Source: Branchipolynoe longqiensis
Taxonomy: Eukaryota; Annelida; Polychaeta; Phyllodocida; Polynoidae
NCBI GenBank assembly: GCA_030323885.1
Contig: CM059187.1
Location: 122,851,593-122,915,592 of the forward strand
Reading direction: 5' to 3'
Length of the DNA: 64,000 nucleotides
Shown here: piece after piece, positions 7,063 to 45,042 of the stretch
Layout: the number at the start of each line of letters is the position of its first letter
How positions within the stretch are numbered: the first letter of the stretch is position 1
The notes under the pieces: generated by a model
What the model saw: the letters and a program-made list of their open reading frames with translations, nothing else
The model's database searches: none
What the model was told of the DNA's origin: nothing
Position numbers and translations under genes: made by a program

Positions 7063-7421
7063 TTTATTGGAAGGTAACCATGCCAAAAGCAGCCAGATAG
7101 CACACCACACAGCTACATACAAGCCTATGATATATAAATAGGAGTAGGCTAGTCTAGTAATAAGAGTAGAAAAAATAAAGCACATATATGCCAAGAAAAT
7201 CCCAAAATATTAACATACACTACTAACCAGACCAACCAACTATCTATCTGCTACTGAAATACGGGCAATCAAATACCTTATCAGCAGCTACTGTGTGATA
7301 AGACAACACCAACACTACAGCTGGCCAGCATTGAAAACAAGCCTGAATACCCAGGCTTATATGCTATGGACAGTATAAATACAGCCTCAATACAAAAATT
7401 AAATAAACAAATAAAAAATTG
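7063..7421 (+). mobile_element. 5'-truncated LINE 3' end
   Basis: This is the reverse-complement equivalent of 33190-33545, the last ~350 bp of the LINE at 33-39 kb. Shared blocks include 'ccatgccaaaag-agccagata' and 'ctatggacagtataaata'. It ends in an A-rich tail at 7391-7421. 5' truncation with an A-rich tail is the classic LINE insertion signature. Confidence 0.85.
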
Positions 7422-32570: not shown

Positions 32571-32872
32571 TGTTCTCTGTGGCGGAGTGGTTAGAGCGTC
32601 TGACTTTTGTCTAGGTCAGACTCCTAATCTCAGGGTCGGCAGTTCGATTCCCCATGCCCCCAGCTCTGCCAATTTGGATTTCCACTGCTGTGTATAACTT
32701 ACAGCGTCATCAAATGCCGGTTGCTCTCATACCATGTCTATGTGGTGTGGGAGGTTAAAAATCCCTTAGGCGGGTAAAAGTGTAGGCTCGGGCTTTCTAT
32801 CGACCAGCAGTGGAATGGGGAAGACCAGTCGTCTATGAATGAAATTTCCCCTGCTTAAACAACTAATGGACC
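32571..32872 (+). mobile_element. SINE-B, full length
   Basis: Same boxes as 27061-27360. It is followed by an A-rich stretch at 32874-32898 that may be its tail. Confidence 0.92.
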
Positions 32873-33186
32873 AAGAAAAAAAAAAGAAAAAAAAAATTAA
32901 AGTAGAGTAGTTTCTAATGATTTATATATGCGAGGAAGGGAAAAAACCAGTACAAAGAAGTTTGAATAGATTGCACTTGAAATTGTAGTGGGTGGGATCT
33001 GTAAACAACACATTAGGTAGGGTGAGAAATTAAAGTTGCATGGTCCGATGGTTTTGAGTTTCTGTCATTTGTCTGAGATAAATATATTACATTGATTGTT
33101 ATAATCTACCATACTTTCAGTTTCAAGTAACTTTTATTTCACAACGCTAAATTTTGAGATATTTGAAGTGTAAACATGTCAGATTT

Positions 33187-33584
33187 TGTTTTTTTTGTTT
33201 TTTTGTTTTTCTTTTTTTTATTGAGGCTGTATTTATACTGTCCATAGCATATAAGCCCGGGTACCCAGGCTTGTTTTCAATGCTGGCCAGTTGTAGTGTT
33301 GGTGTTATCTTACCACACAGTGGCTGCTGATAAGGTATTTGATTGCCTGCATTTCAGTAGCAGATAGATAATTGGTTGGTATGGTTAGTAGCCTATGTTA
33401 GTTTTTTTGGATTTTCTTGGTATATATGTTTTTATTTTTCTACTCTTATTACTAGACTAGCCTACTCCTATTTACATATCATAGGCTTGTACGTAGCTGT
33501 GTGGTGTGTTATCTGGCTACTTTTGGCATGGTTACCTTCCATTGGGCATCCCGCTGGTGGGCCGTGACATATCACATGCCCCTT
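33187..33584 (-). other. LINE 3' UTR and A-rich tail
   Basis: Non-coding on the minus strand after the ORF2 stop at 33585. It contains the conserved block seen at 7063-7421 and ends in AAAACAAAAAAAC-type sequence at the junction with the host MITE. Confidence 0.85.
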
Positions 33585-36448
33585 TCAGTGCAGCTTACTG
33601 GGGTTTCCTAGCCTTATTTTGCACAGATATTTTTTGTAAGTTTTTAGGTCAGGAATTTGTCGTTCCTTTACCGTTTGGGCATTCCACAACTTGGCAGCCA
33701 TTTCCAGCGTGCTTCTCTCATGAGCTTTTATTCGGCTTCTGGTCTGCTTTAGTAGGGGTGCATTATTTGCTCTAGTAGCCCTTTGTGGTTCTGTTAGAAG
33801 TTTACTGTTTTGACTATAGCTATATGCTAATGTTTTCAAATGAATTATTCTCCTATTTTCTAGTAGTTTCACTTTGGTTCTTTTGTGTATGTCATAGGTT
33901 GGGTGCAGCTTGTCTACTCCTTAGACAGATTTTTAGGGCTCTGTATCTGGCAGTGTTTGCAGTTTTTTTAGTAGGTTCTTTTTCTCGCACCCATGTAGTT
34001 TACATCTCCATAGTCAAAATAGGGGAGCACCATGCCCTTAAAGATTTTTATTGACATTTCTTGTGTCATGTAGTCTCTTAGCTTTGCAAATAGCCACAGT
34101 TTGTGGTTTACTTTTTGTATAATTTATTTATACATAGGTTGTAGTTTAGTTGGCTGTCCAACTCAAGGCCTAGGTATTTGTAATGGTCTACATTTTCTAG
34201 TGTTTGGTTTCCTAACTTACAGTGTAGTTTTCTTTCTGGCATTTGTTTATGCGAGAAGAGAACTGTTTTTGATTTGCTTGTGTTGATGGTTATTTTGTTG
34301 GACTCACACCACTCATCTAGTTTTAGTAGGAGTTTATTTAGTTTAGTTATTACCTCCTCCTCTGTGGTGCCATTTGCGTATATGACTGTGTCATCTGCAT
34401 ATAGTTGGAGGCATTCAGTTTGCAACCATTTTTCAAGGTCGTTTATCTAGATTATAAAGAGTAGTGGCCCTAACACTGACCCGTGGGGTACACCACATGT
34501 GACAGGTTGGTTGTCTGATCTAGTGTATTGTTTATTTTTTGTTTTCTGTTGCCTGGTTGTTCAGGTAGCATCTTATCCAAGTCCATAGTGTTGATTTTTA
34601 TGCCCCATGTTTTTTAGTTTTTCCAGTAGTAATCTTGTGGTCTACTGTGTCAAATGCTTTGCTGAAGTCAATGAAGCTGCTCCACTATTGTTTTTGTTCA
34701 TTGATGCCATTATGTCATTTGTTAGTTACTATGTTTTGATGTGGAGTGCAGTTTCCTGAAGCCCCCTTGTCTTCGTTTAGTATATCGTGTATATCATTTT
34801 TTCCAGGTGTACATCTGAAGTGTCTATGGTAACACTTTTTCAATGAGCTTGCCTGGGGTTTGAAGAATTGATATTGGCCTGTAGTTTCCCATGTTTTGTT
34901 TGTCTCCCCCCTTGTGAATGGGGGTGATGGTTGCCATTTTCCAGGCTGAGATAAAACGCCCCTGCTCAAAGGAGATGTTGAATAGGTCTACTATGGTGGC
35001 CGGGATGGCTTGGAGTGCCTCTTTCAGTACTTTGGTTGGTATTTCATCTATTCCACTTGGTTTATTCGTGTCTATGTCATTTATTAATTTTTTTACTTCT
35101 ATCATATCTGTTTTGCAGGTGGGGATTTCGTTCTCCACAGTTCCTGATCTGTTTTCCCATCTTTTTTTGAATTTTTCTGACAGCTTTTTCCCTATTGTGG
35201 CAAAGTGTCTGTTCAGTTTGTTTGCTGCATCTTTGTCTGTGAGCATTGCCCCTTCGTTATCTTGGAAGTTTGTATGCTCTTCTTTGTTATTTTTTGGGAA
35301 TAATAGGTTTACATTTTTCCAGAATTTGTTTGTGTTGCTTCCCCAGTCTTTGTCCAGCTTTATTATGTATTTCTTTTTTGCTGTTCTCACAGCTTTGAGA
35401 CAGTTGTTTCTGGCGATGCGGTAGGCCAGTTTGTCTTCTATTGTTTCTGTGCGTTTTGCTTTATCACCCAGTTTACTTTTGGTTGTGATGAGTGTTAGCA
35501 GGTCTTTGTCTACGCAAGGGTCTTGGTTTTTTTGTACTTTTATTTTCTTCATGGGACACATCTCATCAATTGATTTTCTTATTTCTGTGATGATGTTGTC
35601 CCAATAGATATCGACATCATCTCTGTTTTGTGTGATGTTGCTTATGTTTTGGTGCAGATGATTTTTTAATGTATCTTCTGAGTAGTTTTTTAAGGACCTG
35701 CCCATTTTGTATTCATAGTGATTTGTGCTTTTAAGCTTTTTCCTGGTTACATATACTAGTTCGTGGTCGCTTATACCCCAGCTTCTAGTGCCCCATTTTG
35801 TGGCATGGTTTGAGCTGGTTAATATTAGGTCTATTGTTGAGCTATTGTTGCTTAGCCTTGTGTTTTCAGTGATGAGCTGCTGCAGGCCTAAGATCTTGAT
35901 GGTGGTTTGCAGCATTAGTTTATTTTTGTCATTGCTGCTGTAATTCACATTGAAGTCCCCTAGAACAAAGATTTCTGCATTTGTTGATTTTTTTACAGTG
36001 TTTATGCTCTTTTCTAGTTCTTCAAGGAATACTTCAATTTCACCTGACGGTGGCCTATAGAGGCTCGCTATGGCTACATTTGCTTGCTTTTCATTTTTTA
36101 TTAGGCACCCTAGTAGCTCTATGTGCTCATTTGAGAGATTTGTTGGTTTTAGCTTTTCAGTGTCTAGGTTTTTGGTGGCTTTGCAGTAAATGGCAACCCC
36201 TCCACCTTTCTTTGTTTGGTTCATTGCATTAATGTGCTGTCTGTCATTACGTACAAGCCTATATCCGTCTATATTGAGGGTGTTGTCTTGGTGCTTGTCA
36301 GTGAACCATGTCTCTGATAACGTTAGTACATCTAGATTGTCTTTTTTAGATGCATTTTTATTATGTCTATTTTATTGGATGCACTCTGGCAGTTTAGGTG
36401 GGCGAAGTGTGTGCCCCTTCCCAGTTTGCATTCAATCTCTTCTACCAT
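33585..36448 (-). pseudogene. LINE ORF2: endonuclease and reverse transcriptase, frameshifted
   Basis: ORF2 makes the element's endonuclease and reverse transcriptase for target-primed reverse transcription. The start chosen is the ATG at 36448, because the endonuclease N-terminus (THFAHLNCQS) follows at once. A frameshift near 36345 breaks the frame before LSETWF. The longest intact stretch (36224-34824) has KGGGVAIYC, VLGDFNVN, TIDLILTS and ISDHELV, which carry the endonuclease's catalytic Asn, Asp and His signature, then reaches RT motif NYRPISIL. Downstream, FIDFSKAFDTVDH (about 34675-34640), a GS-LGPLL-like block and YADDT (34401-34387, catalytic Asp pair) are present but separated by frameshifts and stops. 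The C-terminus (33872-33585) has a conserved basic region with KLWNAQ. Coding length is about 950 codons, normal for this class. Confidence 0.93.
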
Positions 36449-36772
36449 ATTTATTTTACTTTAAATAATATTTTTAGGATAGTGGTTGCTTGATTTCGCG
36501 ATTTTTTGATTTTGTTTTGATTTTATTTTGGCTTAGTGATTGATGGATTCGGGGTGTATGTGCTGGTGCATACAGCACACATGGCCCCTTTTGATAGATA
36601 GTCATGCATACCTCCATTACTTTTACCTGTGCGCATAGAGGAAGACATGAACATAAAAGTGTGTATTAGTTGTACCTGATTATACTTATGATTTAGGGTT
36701 TGGTTAGTGAAATTTTTCAATTACTTCTTGTTTTCTTATGACATATTTGTTTTTGCTCGATAATTTATTTGT
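36449..36772 (-). other. LINE inter-ORF spacer
   Basis: About 320 bp on the minus strand between the NADAR ORF stop and the ORF2 start. A 65-codon open frame (36720-36523) shows no domain. Confidence 0.6.
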
Positions 36773-37246
36773 TTATTTATTAGTATTTGCTTCCTTGCAC
36801 AGGCTTTCCTTAATTTTTTGGAGGATGTTCCCCATTTTATTTTTGTATCCTTGTTTTACTGTTTCGCCTTCACTGGCGCTGTCCAGGTACCGACCTGAGC
36901 CCCAATATGGGCATTTTGTGCATTCCCTGAATGCATTTCCTGGAGCATTTATTAGTTTCTCCTTCAGGCTTTCGTTTTGTGTGAATTTTGCGCAGACGAT
37001 GTCCTCCAGCACATTTTCATTGGTTTTGCACCAATCCTGTGTTCTCCATATCTTCTTTGCCATTGCCTTGATGGTATATGGATTTTCAGTGTTGTCTATC
37101 ATTCTCATTATGTCGTGTTTCTCATGGTATTTTGCCATTATTGAGCTGTAGTATTGCTCTGCTGATGTATATTTTTTACCATCCTTTCCAGTGATTTCAC
37201 ACTTGTAGAGATTGCTCAAAGGGGAGTTGTGTCCTTGGAAAGACAT
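36773..37246 (-). CDS. NADAR/YbiA-like domain ORF within the LINE
   Basis: An intact 157-codon ORF that reads as a complete NADAR domain (N-glycosidase fold of the YbiA family). Visible landmarks: residues 3-14 FQGHNSPLSNLY (family F-x-SPLSNFY); 26-33 YTSAEQYY (family Y-x-SxEHYYQ); 55-65 NPYTIKAMAKK (family NPxxAKxLG); W72; 79-98 with ED-x3-AKFTQN-x6-L (family M-x6-KFxQNxxLxxxL); 106-118 FRE-x6-WGSG (family LVE-x7-WGIG). Family length is ~150 residues, so nothing is missing. The ATG lies just before the domain and overlaps the end of ORF1 by 31 nt in another frame. It is therefore either a separate overlapping ORF or the C-terminal part of ORF1 cut off by a frameshift. Known NADAR enzymes cleave N-glycosidic bonds in riboflavin intermediates or remove ADP-ribose from guanine in nucleic acids. 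The role here is inference. A K-rich C-terminus (residues 132-157) follows the domain. Confidence 0.9.
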   Translation of the reverse strand: MSFQGHNSPLSNLYKCEITGKDGKKYTSAEQYYSSIMAKYHEKHDIMRMIDNTENPYTIKAMAKKIWRTQDWCKTNENVLEDIVCAKFTQNESLKEKLINAPGNAFRECTKCPYWGSGRYLDSASEGETVKQGYKNKMGNILQKIKESLCKEANTNK

Positions 37247-38296
37247 GTGTGTTCCCTAGTTGCTGCCTTCTCAGGTGTGATTTCTGCTATTTCTATTTTA
37301 TCAAATTCGTTGGGCTTATAGATTTTTCCATTTACCTCTATATTGCATCCTTTCATTTTGATTGACTTTATTTTTTCGTTTTTGTTCTCCATTGCAAGTG
37401 TGTACATTTGTTGTACCGTTTTCTCATTTAGCATTTTGGCTTCTGATCTGACCGGCCTCATTGTTACCTTGCTGTAGCTTTCTTTTGACTGGAGCATTTT
37501 TTTTTTCTGGAAGAGTTCTTTTTTGTGTGACTCCTTTTCCAGCTGGATTTTGATGCTCCTTGGTCTGCTTGTGATTTTTTCGGTGTTTTGGGTTTCTGTA
37601 TCTTTGGTTTCCTTGTCTTTATTTTTGTCTGAGGTCTGCTCGTTGTTGTCTGTGGTTTTTTTTTGGTGTTGCCTCTTTTTTCATTTTCTTTCCTAGACGG
37701 AAGGCTTTGGTCACTACCGTCCAGCCAAAGTCACAGTCTGCTTCTTTTAGCATGTTTGTGACAGTTTTCTCCATGTTTTCGTCTTCTTTTTCCGGGATGC
37801 CATGTACTATGATGCTGAGTTTTTTCCCATCACTTTTTGTTGCCTCTGTTTGGGCTGTATCCGTGGGTGGCTTCCTTTTGTCCATGGGCGCAGTCCTGGT
37901 ATTGTTTATACCTTTGTTTTCATTTGTGATGTTCGTTTGTTCTTTGAGCTTCTCAAACTCAGATTTGTACCACGTGCATTCTATTTGCAACGTGTTGTAT
38001 GCTACCTGTAGTGCCTGCAGTTGGTTATGATATTCATTGTCATTGTCGTTGTCCCTTGGTTTTGTTTTGTTTTTTCCAACATTTCCATTGTCATTCGTGC
38101 CGTTTCCGTCATTTACTTTTATATCCTTTTTGTTTTTGCCCCCCTTCGCTAATTCTTCTTTTACTGTTTGGATTACCAGTCTCACTATCTCATCCTTATC
38201 CATATGCTTATCTCCGTGTTCCGTTATTTCCACACGCTTACCTCCATGCTCCGTTATTTCCATTTCGTTATCCTGTTTGTCGTCCTTTCCCTCCAT
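37216..38296 (-). pseudogene. LINE ORF1: coiled-coil and RRM-like RNA-binding protein
   Basis: ORF1 proteins of LINEs bind element RNA as multimers and act as chaperones. The start is the ATG at 38296 (MEGKDDKQ). The first ~95 residues are charged and Lys/Glu-rich. A likely coiled coil follows (LQALQVAYNTLQ), then an RRM-like region with SIIVHGIPE and TKAFRLGKK, similar in layout to L1-type ORF1 proteins. The frame is lost at an A8 run (about 37659-37666) and resumes in the next frame (PRSIKIQLEKE ... ATREH) until the stop at 37216. A one-base slip in the A run is the simplest cause. The 3' end overlaps the NADAR ORF start. Confidence 0.85.
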
Positions 38297-39002
38297 TTTT
38301 AACGACTGGTTATCTGTCGTAGTGTTCTAGTGAACAAATTTTTTTTTTTTGGTTATGAGTATTTGTAGGGACATGAAACGTCGAAAAACGTCGAAAAACG
38401 TCGAAAAACGTCGATCGGCGGTATTACATTGAATTTTGAAATCGTTTTTCACAAATCGACGTACTGCACCTTACTGCAACAAGCAACAGCGTTCACTCAA
38501 ACATAGTTTAAAAGAGAACAGGCCATAGACTCAGTGTATACAAATACTATTTGTGTGCTGGTGAGTGACAGCTGGTGAGTGATAATAGGGGAATCTATCA
38601 GTTCACTCAACTCAACAGTGGTTTTGAGTCATTTAGACATTATAAAGCACACACACACACACCTCAACAGCAAAGCAAAGTATATGGGTGATAATATGCC
38701 ATGGTACTTAGCTGTGAGTGATAGTACATTCGTTGTACCAGGTGATACAAATCCTGGCAATCTGTAGCCTTGTTTTTGCCGTTTTCGGCGATTCCCGCCG
38801 TACCTAACGGTCGATAGGGATGTTTTGATTTTGTTTTTAGTGTATTCCTGCTTACAGGTCTATCCTGTAGTATCCTGGGATGTTTGTATAGTATCCTGGG
38901 ATGTTTATGAGGAAAATCCGCTTAGTCTTGGTTTTTTATGCACACTTTAGTATATTGGATTCGCGATAATCAGCGTCCGCGTAAGATTAACGTACACTCA
39001 CG
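38297..39002 (-). promoter_or_regulatory. LINE 5' UTR / probable internal promoter region
   Basis: About 700 bp upstream of ORF1 on the minus strand. It includes a triple CGTTTTTCGA repeat (38378-38412), a (TG)n tract (about 38648-38662) and a duplicated 'aacatcccaggatactat' motif (38880-38910). Promoter function is expected for a LINE 5' UTR but is not shown by sequence. Confidence 0.55.
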
Positions 39003-42276: not shown

Positions 42277-42955
42277 GGAAGCAACATCCGGTTTCAGCAA
42301 TTAGCATATTCCGCTCATAACTGGAGGAACGTTACGAGCAGCTCAGCAGTTTTTACCACGGATTTACTCACTACTACTGTAAGTACCGGAACATAAACTG
42401 GTATATTGGTTCATGAATGTTAATAGCACACGCTTATAAGCTTTTTAAGACAAAGCTTACTTGTACTAAGTAACTTTTACAAGCGTTGTGTTTATCCGGT
42501 GCCGTAGTTCGAGGCATCCATTTTATTTTTGCCGCCCGTTGCCGAACGGAGAGACATGTTGGCTGGAGTCATTTCGTCGCTTAGATAGCATTTATTTTTG
42601 CCGCCCGTTGCCCAACGGTGAGACATGTTGGCTGGAGCCATTTCGTCGTCATGATAGTTTTTTCTGAGGCGTACCTCCGAGTTTCATAATATTTTCTCCA
42701 ACTTGTTGGCGTTGAAGCCACAGGGGGGAGAAGTCTATGATACAGAGAGTGTGGGTGGGACAGTACACTGGTCCCTACCCCTCGATTCGTTTCGGTTCGG
42801 TTCGCCGACCGTTACGCTTTCGTGATACCTTAGCTTACTCACGCCTGGTATAAAACTGATGTAAATACAGTTTTCTTACCCTATAAGGGCTACATGCCCC
42901 TTCCACACTGTTCCACTGGTTCAGTTATTCCTTGAGTTCGTGCTAAACACCCTTT
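42277..42955 (+). other. DIRS-like leader with 69-bp tandem duplication
   Basis: A non-coding leader between the terminal repeat and the first ORF. Two units with period 69 bp (gccgcccgttgcc-aacgg at 42531 and 42600) each contain 'agacatgttggctggag'. The first bases (ggaagcaacatccgg) recur inverted at about 45395-45410 in the neighbouring palindromic element. Confidence 0.8.
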
Positions 42956-44083
42956 TTGGTTGTTTTCAGACGACTCGAGATGGCCGCGAAGCGGGGTAGC
43001 AAAGGTGCTCCACACACGCTCAGCCAGGGGGAAGCGACCCCGGGTCTCTTATCGGGCGCGTCACGTGACCGCTCCCCAGAGCCAGGGCCTTCCCAACCAG
43101 ACCCCAATGAGCAGATGGTGAGGCTCATTCGTGAGCAGATGCAACAGCTGCTCCCAACACCGCCGCCTAAAACGACCACTAAAGCCAAGGGCAATTTCGA
43201 ATGCCTAATGACAATTTCCAAAGCAGGACATGCAAACATCCAATGGTGGATGCAACATTTAATTAATTCCCATAATCCCATCCGTATGGATGAACCTAAC
43301 ACAACAGTCACTACTGATGCATCATTAGAGGGTTGGGGCGCCCACAGAGATAATGAAGCCACAGGGGGCCGCTGGCTAGATAACGAAATTGAAGATCACA
43401 TAAACGTCCTAGAATTAAGAGCCATCTATCTAGGTCTCACAAGTTTAGTTAAAATACAAAAACTTACTGTCCAAGTGTTAACGGATAATACTACAGCAAT
43501 GGCCTATATCCGTAACATGGGAGGGACAAAGTCCTCGGCTTGCAACGCCATCGCAAAACTCATCTGGGATTGGGCAGAGAAACAACACCTTTGGATAACA
43601 GTAGCTCATATCCCAGGTACACTAAATACATTAGCCGACAATAAAAGCCGACATTTCCATGATCATTTAGAATGGTCACTCAGTCCCGACATATTTAAGA
43701 CAATTTGTCATCAATGGGGAATTCCAGACATAGATCTTTTTGCCTCTCGTAGGAACAAAAAACTTGATAAATATGTATCCTGGCATCCAGAGCCACACGC
43801 TTGGCGAGTGGATGCCTTTTCTCTTATTTGGAATAACGCATTTTACTATATTTTTCCACCATTTAGCCTAATCAGCAGGGTAGCCAGAAAAATCAGGCTG
43901 GACAAAACCCATGCAGTACTGATAGTCCCGGACTGGAACACTCAGCCATGGCGAGCCATAGTGCAGTGGGAAGCCAAAAACTTTTTAAGATTCCCACGCG
44001 GGCCAATAAACCTACAACATCAAGGAAAAGTGACAACCCTCGGGGACGTGTCCACAACCCCGTTACTGGCATTCCTTTTCTAA
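42956..44083 (+). CDS. DIRS-type RNase H protein (RT deleted)
   Basis: Intact 375-codon ORF. Residues 1-80 are polar and Pro-rich, possibly the remnant of a Gag/RT N-terminus. At about 81-100 (FECLMTISKAGHANIQWW) begins the linker that normally follows reverse transcriptase in DIRS polyproteins. RNase H follows with acidic residues D121 (TTDASLEGWGA), E153 (NVLELRAIYLG), D177 (LTDNTTAMAYIR) and D228 (LADNKSR). The DIRS-typical C-terminal region comes next (DLFASRRNKKL, VDAFSLIW, PPFSLISRVARKI, VLIVPDWNTQPW). No RT motif is present anywhere, so the protein should cleave RNA in RNA:DNA hybrids but cannot copy it. The start at 42956 is the first ATG; an internal ATG (M9) in MAAKRG is an equally likely start. 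It overlaps the recombinase ORF by 136 nt. Confidence 0.9.
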   Translation: MVVFRRLEMAAKRGSKGAPHTLSQGEATPGLLSGASRDRSPEPGPSQPDPNEQMVRLIREQMQQLLPTPPPKTTTKAKGNFECLMTISKAGHANIQWWMQHLINSHNPIRMDEPNTTVTTDASLEGWGAHRDNEATGGRWLDNEIEDHINVLELRAIYLGLTSLVKIQKLTVQVLTDNTTAMAYIRNMGGTKSSACNAIAKLIWDWAEKQHLWITVAHIPGTLNTLADNKSRHFHDHLEWSLSPDIFKTICHQWGIPDIDLFASRRNKKLDKYVSWHPEPHAWRVDAFSLIWNNAFYYIFPPFSLISRVARKIRLDKTHAVLIVPDWNTQPWRAIVQWEAKNFLRFPRGPINLQHQGKVTTLGDVSTTPLLAFLF

Positions 44084-45042
44084 GAGCGTATTTACAAAAA
44101 TACGGACTTGATAAAATCACCCAAGAAAGGTTGATTTCCCATGCCTGGAGGCCAGGAACTGTTAAAATGTATACCACTTACCTTAAGAAATGGGGAGTAT
44201 ATTGTTTAATACAAAAGGTTAAACCGATGGCTCCTACTGTCGCGCAAGTAGGCCGATTCCTGCGCATGTTGGAAGATGATGGACTTGGTTATGGGGCCAT
44301 AAATGCGGCGCGCTGCGCACTCTCCATTATTGTACCAAGAATAGAAGGACAAACCATTGGCAAACACGAAGTCATTCATTGGATCATGAGATCAATCTAT
44401 GAAAGAAACCCCCCAAAACCGAAATATAGTCGGTTTTGGGATGTTTCTACAGTATTCAAGCTTTTCCAATCTTGGCCTGAAAATAAATTTCTCACTATCC
44501 AACGCTTAGGCTATAAAGTAGCAGTATTATTACTTTTAGTAGCAGGACATAGAGGACAGACAATTGTAGCCCTCTCCTTGCAAGGCCTGGATATTGATAA
44601 GAAAGAGGCCACGTTTGATTTGGACATACTGTTAAAATCAAACAGGACAGGAGATCCACTCTCCTCCATCCATCTCGATAGCTTTCCACAAGATAGGAAA
44701 CTTTGTGTAGTTGCCGCCATTAGGACATATATATCCAAGACTAAGGGAATACGAAATTCCAAGCAGCTACTTGTGAGCTTTATTAAACCGCATAAAGCCA
44801 TCTCACGCGACACACTCGCCAGATGGACTATTATTATACTCAAATTGGCCGGCATAAACACAGAACGCTATGCGTCGCACTCTACAAGAGGGGCCATGGT
44901 CTCCAAAGCAAGAAAGTTAGGAATCTCAGTTCGCAGAATCCTGATACACGCCGGCTGGAAGACGGCCAAGTCGTTTGCTAAACACTACAACAAACGAGTC
45001 GAAAAACCGAGCGGGGTGGCAACCCGCCTACTCACCAACTAA
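43948..45042 (+). CDS. DIRS-type tyrosine recombinase
   Basis: Intact 364-codon ORF in a different frame, overlapping the RNase H ORF. It is predicted to integrate the circular DNA form of the element in the nucleus. Residues 40-135 look like the SAM-like core-binding domain (WRPGTVKMYTTYLKKWG). The catalytic domain contains R202 (AGHRGQTIVAL), H311 and R314 (HSTRGAMVS), W337 in the H/W position (HAGWKTAKSF) and the nucleophile Y347 (FAKHYNKR). All expected catalytic residues are present and no stop or frameshift is seen, so the protein may be functional. The true start is uncertain because DIRS recombinases can be reached by frameshift or internal initiation. Related Crypton elements also use such recombinases, but the adjacent RNase H argues for DIRS. 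Confidence 0.93.
   Translation: MASHSAVGSQKLFKIPTRANKPTTSRKSDNPRGRVHNPVTGIPFLRAYLQKYGLDKITQERLISHAWRPGTVKMYTTYLKKWGVYCLIQKVKPMAPTVAQVGRFLRMLEDDGLGYGAINAARCALSIIVPRIEGQTIGKHEVIHWIMRSIYERNPPKPKYSRFWDVSTVFKLFQSWPENKFLTIQRLGYKVAVLLLLVAGHRGQTIVALSLQGLDIDKKEATFDLDILLKSNRTGDPLSSIHLDSFPQDRKLCVVAAIRTYISKTKGIRNSKQLLVSFIKPHKAISRDTLARWTIIILKLAGINTERYASHSTRGAMVSKARKLGISVRRILIHAGWKTAKSFAKHYNKRVEKPSGVATRLLTN

Follow-up and report, generated by a model that had tools for sequence, protein, structure and literature searches.

The polychaete Branchipolynoe longqiensis harbors a long interspersed nuclear element (LINE) whose first open reading frame (ORF1) ends in a NADAR domain. A copy of this element was found in a stretch of 64,000 nucleotides, here called the window (contig CM059187.1, positions 122,851,593 to 122,915,592). 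Protein relatives, the predicted fold and related loci show that NADAR is the C-terminal domain of a type II (LINE-1-like) ORF1 protein, in which it follows a coiled coil, an RNA recognition motif (RRM) and a C-terminal domain (CTD). The intact NADAR frame of the window is the last third of ORF1.

NADAR as the C-terminal domain of ORF1

The domain is encoded by an open frame at 36773-37246 of the minus strand. A preliminary description of this DNA had quoted its motifs and assigned it to the NADAR family, and both the frame with these motifs and the family could be confirmed. The frame matches PF08719 (Pfam) with an E-value of 2.9e-20 and 73.6 bits, compared to a cut-off of 35.1, a similarity far beyond chance. 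Both the NADAR superfamily profile and the NADAR fold were recognized. Among solved structures, it matches the sequences of the P. nicotianae NADAR (8bau, E 3.3e-6) and of E. coli YbiA (2b3w, E 0.002). The NCBIfam profile TIGR02464, which stands for the riboflavin-intermediate N-glycosidase, scores 69.6 bits in the window and stays below its equivalog cut-off of 73.7 bits. Of the protein relatives described below, P0001 exceeds this cut-off (76.2), while P0003 and P0004 score 63.7 and 65.9.

A single strand bears ORF1 sequence upstream of the NADAR and ORF2 sequence about 320 bases downstream of it. This places the domain within a single LINE, flanked by ORF1 on one side and by endonuclease-reverse transcriptase sequence on the other and in their orientation, as had been proposed beforehand. 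It had also been taken for a complete stand-alone ORF, in a layout of three ORFs (ORF1-NADAR-ORF2). This could not be upheld. A NADAR gene of its own, placed between the two ORFs, is ruled out because the relatives read ORF1 into NADAR in one frame. The ATG at 37246, which falls within the junction of ORF1 and NADAR, seems to be there by chance. In P0005, P0007 and P0008 this junction reads TREHTWGVSFQGHN within one frame, and the window frame at 37216-37680 is the counterpart of the pre-NADAR region in P0003, P0004 and P0007-P0012.

The protein searches covered 5.8 billion proteins. The first query returned six relatives among seven candidates, and a joined ORF1-NADAR query returned six among 4933 candidates, all with a Pfam NADAR (P0007-P0012). 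Read-through from ORF1 to NADAR in a single frame was observed in five of the six proteins of the first set (P0001, P0003, P0004, P0005 and P0006) and in all six of the second; P0002, the exception, represents only a C-terminal fragment. The relatives reach 537 residues. For the full-length P0007, the order coiled coil, RRM, CTD and NADAR was predicted, and a fold match to human LINE-1 ORF1p, the type II fold, was found. In the last profile search, eight of nine proteins contained a Pfam NADAR, the ninth being P0016 (271 residues). As NADAR was part of the queries, the searches favor NADAR-bearing relatives, and how often the domain is missing cannot be told from them.

LINE families with NADAR in the same genome

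The genome (1.85 Gb, 1914 contigs) was searched with NADAR, yielding 1798 first-look candidates. Of these, 150 were scored and all 150 lay over the cut-off. The three best matches are host-type domains, two in one frame on contig C3 and one on C18. From the other 147, 32 loci were read: the 20 best-scoring with long flanks and 12 chosen for unlike match ranges (about 1.6 kb each). They form a non-random sample, with 115 more scored matches outside it. In these 32 loci, spread over 16 contigs and at least six families (B to G, exemplified by L033, L022, L069, L071, L075 and L078), the ORF1 is of the same kind and ends in NADAR. With the preliminary description, a search for further LINE copies in the order ORF1-NADAR-ORF2 had been proposed; in the loci read here, NADAR is part of ORF1 instead.

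The 20 best loci all belong to families B and C and bear B- or C-type NADARs; for one of them, L021, tblastn found no match at 1e-5. The NADAR lies within an open frame of at least 399 residues in 15 and in a shorter frame in five. Downstream on the same strand, an endonuclease was found in 18/20 and a reverse transcriptase in 19/20. Families B-G share 50-65% identity with each other over the NADAR and 32-52% over the remaining ORF1. When the 12 loci with unlike ranges were compared to the window NADAR, 11 showed 20-32% identity and one gave no match. The window's own family is represented by none of the 32 loci.

The spacing differs between elements. Family B has about 2.3-2.8 kb from the NADAR stop to the endonuclease (e.g., L033 2757-5034, ORF1 forward), while in the window copy ORF2 starts about 0.3 kb after the NADAR stop.

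The host-type genes are a tandem NADAR pair (L001 868-1959; C3:44965504-44966595) and a single domain (L003 1432-2031; C18). They display the standard pocket residues K50, R79 and D130 and are natural controls for assays.

Selection on the NADAR domain

A comparison of nonsynonymous and synonymous changes across LINE copies, proposed with the preliminary description, was carried out for families B-G with the codon model GY in IQ-TREE. One ratio (omega) was assumed per region, with neutral decay on the end branches included. Omega was 0.34 for the N-terminal and coiled-coil region (13 rows), 0.13 for RRM-CTD (13 rows) and 0.12 for NADAR (14 rows). In families B-G, NADAR is under purifying selection and just as constrained as the RNA-binding core of the protein. 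Pairwise Nei-Gojobori estimates between B and C point in the same direction, with synonymous sites near saturation (NADAR of L033-L022: dN 0.32, dS 2.3). Pairs within families show few differences and are noisy; for the RRM of L022-L023, dN even exceeds dS.

Origin of the LINE NADARs

A tree was calculated from 41 NADARs, 15 of them from LINEs. The window's group forms its own clade (10 rows, support 100/99) and families B and C are grouped together (100/99). The three host NADAR domains cluster with the viral ones (24 rows, 100/99) and separately from the LINE NADARs. A recent capture from host genes is unlikely because the host domains group with the viral NADARs and the window's group stands apart; a capture from the host's own NADAR genes is unsupported.

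The window copy by itself might suggest that a single LINE copy had picked up a host NADAR gene without function, since among the domains of this dead copy only the NADAR frame is still whole. Such a one-off event is extremely improbable. It is contradicted by the NADAR-ending ORF1 in 32 loci on 16 contigs and in six or more families other than that of the window, by the purifying selection and by the position of the three host domains in the tree. Moreover, the family representatives are 35-50% apart in the NADAR protein, so one recent event cannot explain them. The earlier view that the LINE itself carries the NADAR has therefore stood.

LINEs may have taken up NADAR once or several times: a single clade of all 15 LINE NADARs was borderline rejected (approximately unbiased test, p-AU 0.045), with long branches. 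The pre-NADAR ORF1 of the window's group is homologous to that of B and C (hhalign probability 97.3%, E 2e-11), and the window ORF2 shares 30% identity with the family B ORF2 (E 3e-63). Together, these similarities suggest, but do not prove, a long shared history with NADAR.

Active site and proposed role

Residue numbering was anchored on the 8bau chain, whose ADP-ribose contacts are named in PMC11543638. Twenty LINE NADARs were compared: 11 of the window's group (window included), six of families B-G and three others. P0002 and P0005 (fragments), P0016, 8bau, 2b3w and a second family B copy were not counted among them. The 65 non-LINE NADARs comprised three host domains, 21 of 28 viral loci (near-duplicates and partial matches were left out) and 41/41 prokaryotic sequences, one of them archaeal. 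All counts refer to related sequences and not to independent events.

E43 and W89 are present in 20/20 LINE and 65/65 non-LINE NADARs. E125, the Glu of the last strand that marks the YbiA subfamily, is found in the window and throughout the LINE set (20/20), and in 64/65 non-LINE sequences, with one gap. K75 is kept in 20/20 and 63/65, respectively. R93 is also variable among non-LINE NADARs and is little informative. From the conserved E43, E125, W89 and K75, an N-glycosidase-like action can be inferred. With moderate confidence, we regard the NADAR borne by the LINE ORF1 protein as an N-glycosidase-like domain that, in the window's group, has an altered substrate or binds without efficient cleavage. 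As in the case of human LINE-1 ORF1p, the ORF1 protein would be expected to coat the RNA of its element. By this coating, the NADAR would be carried into the LINE ribonucleoprotein (RNP) and act in cis on its nucleic acid, where it may clear a ribosyl adduct from the bases of the element RNA or cDNA.

Several observations weigh against this reading. K50 is Lys in 7/20 LINE NADARs compared to 64/65 non-LINE ones, and Met in 11/11 members of the window's group. R79 is Arg in 2/20 compared to 60/65, and acidic in families B-G. D130 is Asp in 1/20 compared to 63/65, having become Cys in 11/11 of the window's group and Asn in 6/6 of B-G. Furthermore, one type II-like ORF1 without NADAR exists (P0016), the selection estimate covers families B-G and not the window's own family, families D-G are known from ORF1 only (F and G from one locus each) and the coating of RNA rests on the analogy with human ORF1p.

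W133 is Trp in 13/20 LINE and 64/65 non-LINE NADARs, and Phe or Tyr in B-G. The viral Lys at K50 (21/21) is partly due to construction because one of the two viral search patterns admits only Met or Lys; the prokaryotic set was fetched free of this constraint. For YbiA, four critical residues are reported in PMC9303266, where homologues were mutated in SNA-3 (E251, D343 and W346, and W514 and D559); in our reading, the critical Asp corresponds to D130. In comparison to the NADAR hydrolases (8bau from P. nicotianae, E. coli YbiA 2b3w and the DarT1-linked NADAR), K50, R79 and D130 are mostly replaced in the LINE domains. On the level of sequence, the acid pair (E43, E125) is kept and the diphosphate grip is rebuilt, differently in the window's group and in B-G.

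In more distant ORF1-NADAR proteins, the K50 position is occupied by Lys (P0014), Ala (P0015) or Thr (P0006). In the evolution of LINE NADARs, this residue probably changed on more than one occasion.

The NADAR tethered to the ORF1 protein could alternatively be a plain ADP-ribose eraser that strips the marks of host ADP-ribosyltransferases from guanines of the LINE RNA or cDNA as an anti-defense. Guanine-ADP-ribose is indeed hydrolyzed by NADARs, including eukaryotic ones, according to PMC11543638, and for NADARs in the polyproteins of RNA viruses of animals, a role against ADP-ribosylation by the host has been put forward (PMC9503650). Families B-G retain E43, K50, K75, W89, R93 and E125, with Lys at K50 in 6/6, and may still plausibly be ADP-ribose erasers, but their R79 is acidic and their D130 is Asn. 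In the window's group all three of K50, R79 and D130 are replaced. The Met at K50 in the window speaks against the simple form of this activity in its family, as K95 of the E. coli C7 NADAR, the counterpart of K50, is described in PMC11543638 as essential for the hydrolysis of guanine-ADP-ribose, with Arg also working in vitro. As a general explanation, the eraser is possible but rather unlikely.

Since the diphosphate-gripping residues are replaced in the window's group, the way in which its substrate is bound probably differs from that of free ADP-ribose. In this group, the domain would more likely have a changed substrate, or bind one without cleaving it efficiently, than be a standard guanine-ADP-ribose hydrolase. 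The replacements in the LINE NADARs might also indicate a non-catalytic module, i.e. a reader of nucleic acid or ADP-ribose, or a protein-contact domain, that aids the assembly or localization of the ORF1 protein. Had catalysis been abandoned, however, the invariance of E43, E125 and W89 in 20/20 LINE NADARs would not be expected, and we consider such a module unlikely.

A bolder form of the N-glycosidase-like reading starts from the two ways in which the diphosphate grip is rebuilt (K50 to Met with D130 to Cys; R79 to an acidic residue with D130 to Asn) around the kept acid pair. Each LINE RNP might then bear a new N-glycosidase that frees its own RNA or cDNA from a ribosyl mark or lesion of a non-standard kind, for self-repair or against restriction. 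This is a tentative proposal and quite unlikely to hold in full. We know of no retrotransposon with a ribosyl-stripping enzyme for self-repair or anti-restriction. ZAP is said to restrict retrotransposition.

Comparison with known systems

NADAR cargo in LINEs has been seen before, although the preliminary description knew of no such element. In the main text of PMC12477816 (2025), one sentence, based on a Repbase hit, mentions NADAR in one Ectocarpus Gypsy lineage and in Tx1 LINEs of Crassostrea gigas. The oyster elements resemble the window's LINE in having a YbiA-type NADAR in a retrotransposon ORF1 protein, while the Gypsy lineage carries it in Pol. A processing of the RNA intermediate is suggested there. 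In the open-licence literature searched, this was the only link found between NADAR and retrotransposons; the main texts of PMC11543638, PMC11125620 and PMC9503650 do not mention transposons or retrotransposition.

The coiled coil, single RRM and CTD of the window-type ORF1 are common to type II ORF1 proteins of L1, CR1 and L2 LINEs (PMC4120745), from which it differs by the NADAR added after the CTD. That survey of 448 elements of the Jockey superfamily describes RRM, CCHC, PHD, esterase, coiled-coil and CTD domains among its ORF1 types, and the word NADAR is absent from its main text. Animal RNA viruses offer a parallel, as they too are RNA-copying parasites of animals that carry a NADAR together with their own polymerase. 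There, the domain is described as part of the viral polyprotein (PMC9503650), whereas in the LINE it sits in the RNA-coating ORF1 protein. As far as our searches of the open-licence literature go, the architecture, its presence in at least seven families of one genome, the selection on NADAR and the rebuilt pocket are new.

Features of the window copy

The LINE copy of the window is dead. One frameshift lies at the ORF1-NADAR junction, a second separates the two frames of ORF1 and ORF2 is interrupted by several more (Table 1). Endonuclease and reverse transcriptase sequences nevertheless follow each other on the same strand in broken frames, as in a LINE without long terminal repeats: no long direct repeat pair was present among 20 of the 24 repeat families listed for 32800-39000. 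No clear target-site duplication was found, the best matches between the two LINE ends being T runs.

Table 1. Parts of the LINE and related features in the window
Feature	Position	Strand	Basis or remark
LINE ORF1, first part (coiled coil and first half of RRM)	37619..38296	-	Open frame, ATG at 38296
LINE ORF1, second part after frameshift (second half of RRM and CTD)	37216..37680	-	Open frame; 31-base overlap with NADAR frame
ORF1-NADAR junction, frameshifted relative to relatives	37240..37260	-	TREHTCLSK in one frame, MSFQGHN in the next
NADAR, C-terminal domain of ORF1 in relatives; ATG (looks fortuitous) to stop	36773..37246	-	PF08719, 8bau match
Spacer, ORF1-NADAR stop to ORF2 start	36449..36772	-	ORF2 ATG at 36448
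ORF2, AP-type endonuclease and first part of reverse transcriptase	34824..36448	-	Frameshift near 36341-36352
ORF2, remaining reverse transcriptase, two more frames	34108..34675	-	RVT_1 E 8.3e-10 on 34108-34446 (Pfam)
Probable ORF2 C-terminal part, another frame	33585..33920	-	Open frame without Pfam match; position between reverse transcriptase and 3' end
A-rich 3' tail of LINE (T-rich on + strand)	33185..33220	-	Sequence; match of second copy ends here
Second copy of LINE 3' end, 5'-truncated	7068..7418	+	91% identity over 352 bases to 33194-33541

The frame at 34824-36371 matches the Pfam endonuclease families Exo_endo_phos_2 (E 9.1e-12) and Exo_endo_phos (E 4.8e-11); it gave no match to PDB sequences up to E 1 and none in NCBIfam. 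The family B ORF2 matched only a group II intron reverse transcriptase in NCBIfam, below the cut-off. Reverse transcriptase motifs of the window were located at 34634-34675, 34456-34497 and 34369-34410. By their motifs, the reverse transcriptases of the window (GVPHGSVLGPLLF, YADDT) and of family B (GVPQGSTLGPLLF) look CR1/L2/Jockey-like rather than L1/Tx1-like, which would set them apart from the oyster Tx1 elements.

A short interspersed repeat at 33030-33190 abuts the 3' end of the LINE and has nine more matches in the window (74-87% identity). Elsewhere, two overlapping ORFs lie at 42947-45042 of the plus strand: one weakly resembles RNase H (RVT_3, E 0.018), and the other is a tyrosine-recombinase ORF whose match (Phage_integrase, E 1.2e-4) does not reach the Pfam cut-off. 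This is presumably a piece of a DIRS/Ngaro-like retrotransposon.

Significance

The roles of the extra domains of LINE ORF1 proteins and those of animal NADAR domains are both poorly understood. A selected NADAR on an RNA-coating protein, in several LINE families of one genome, joins the two questions. The rebuilt pocket yields a clear biochemical prediction. If the domain acts as proposed, ribosyl marks on bases would matter to the retrotransposition of invertebrate elements.
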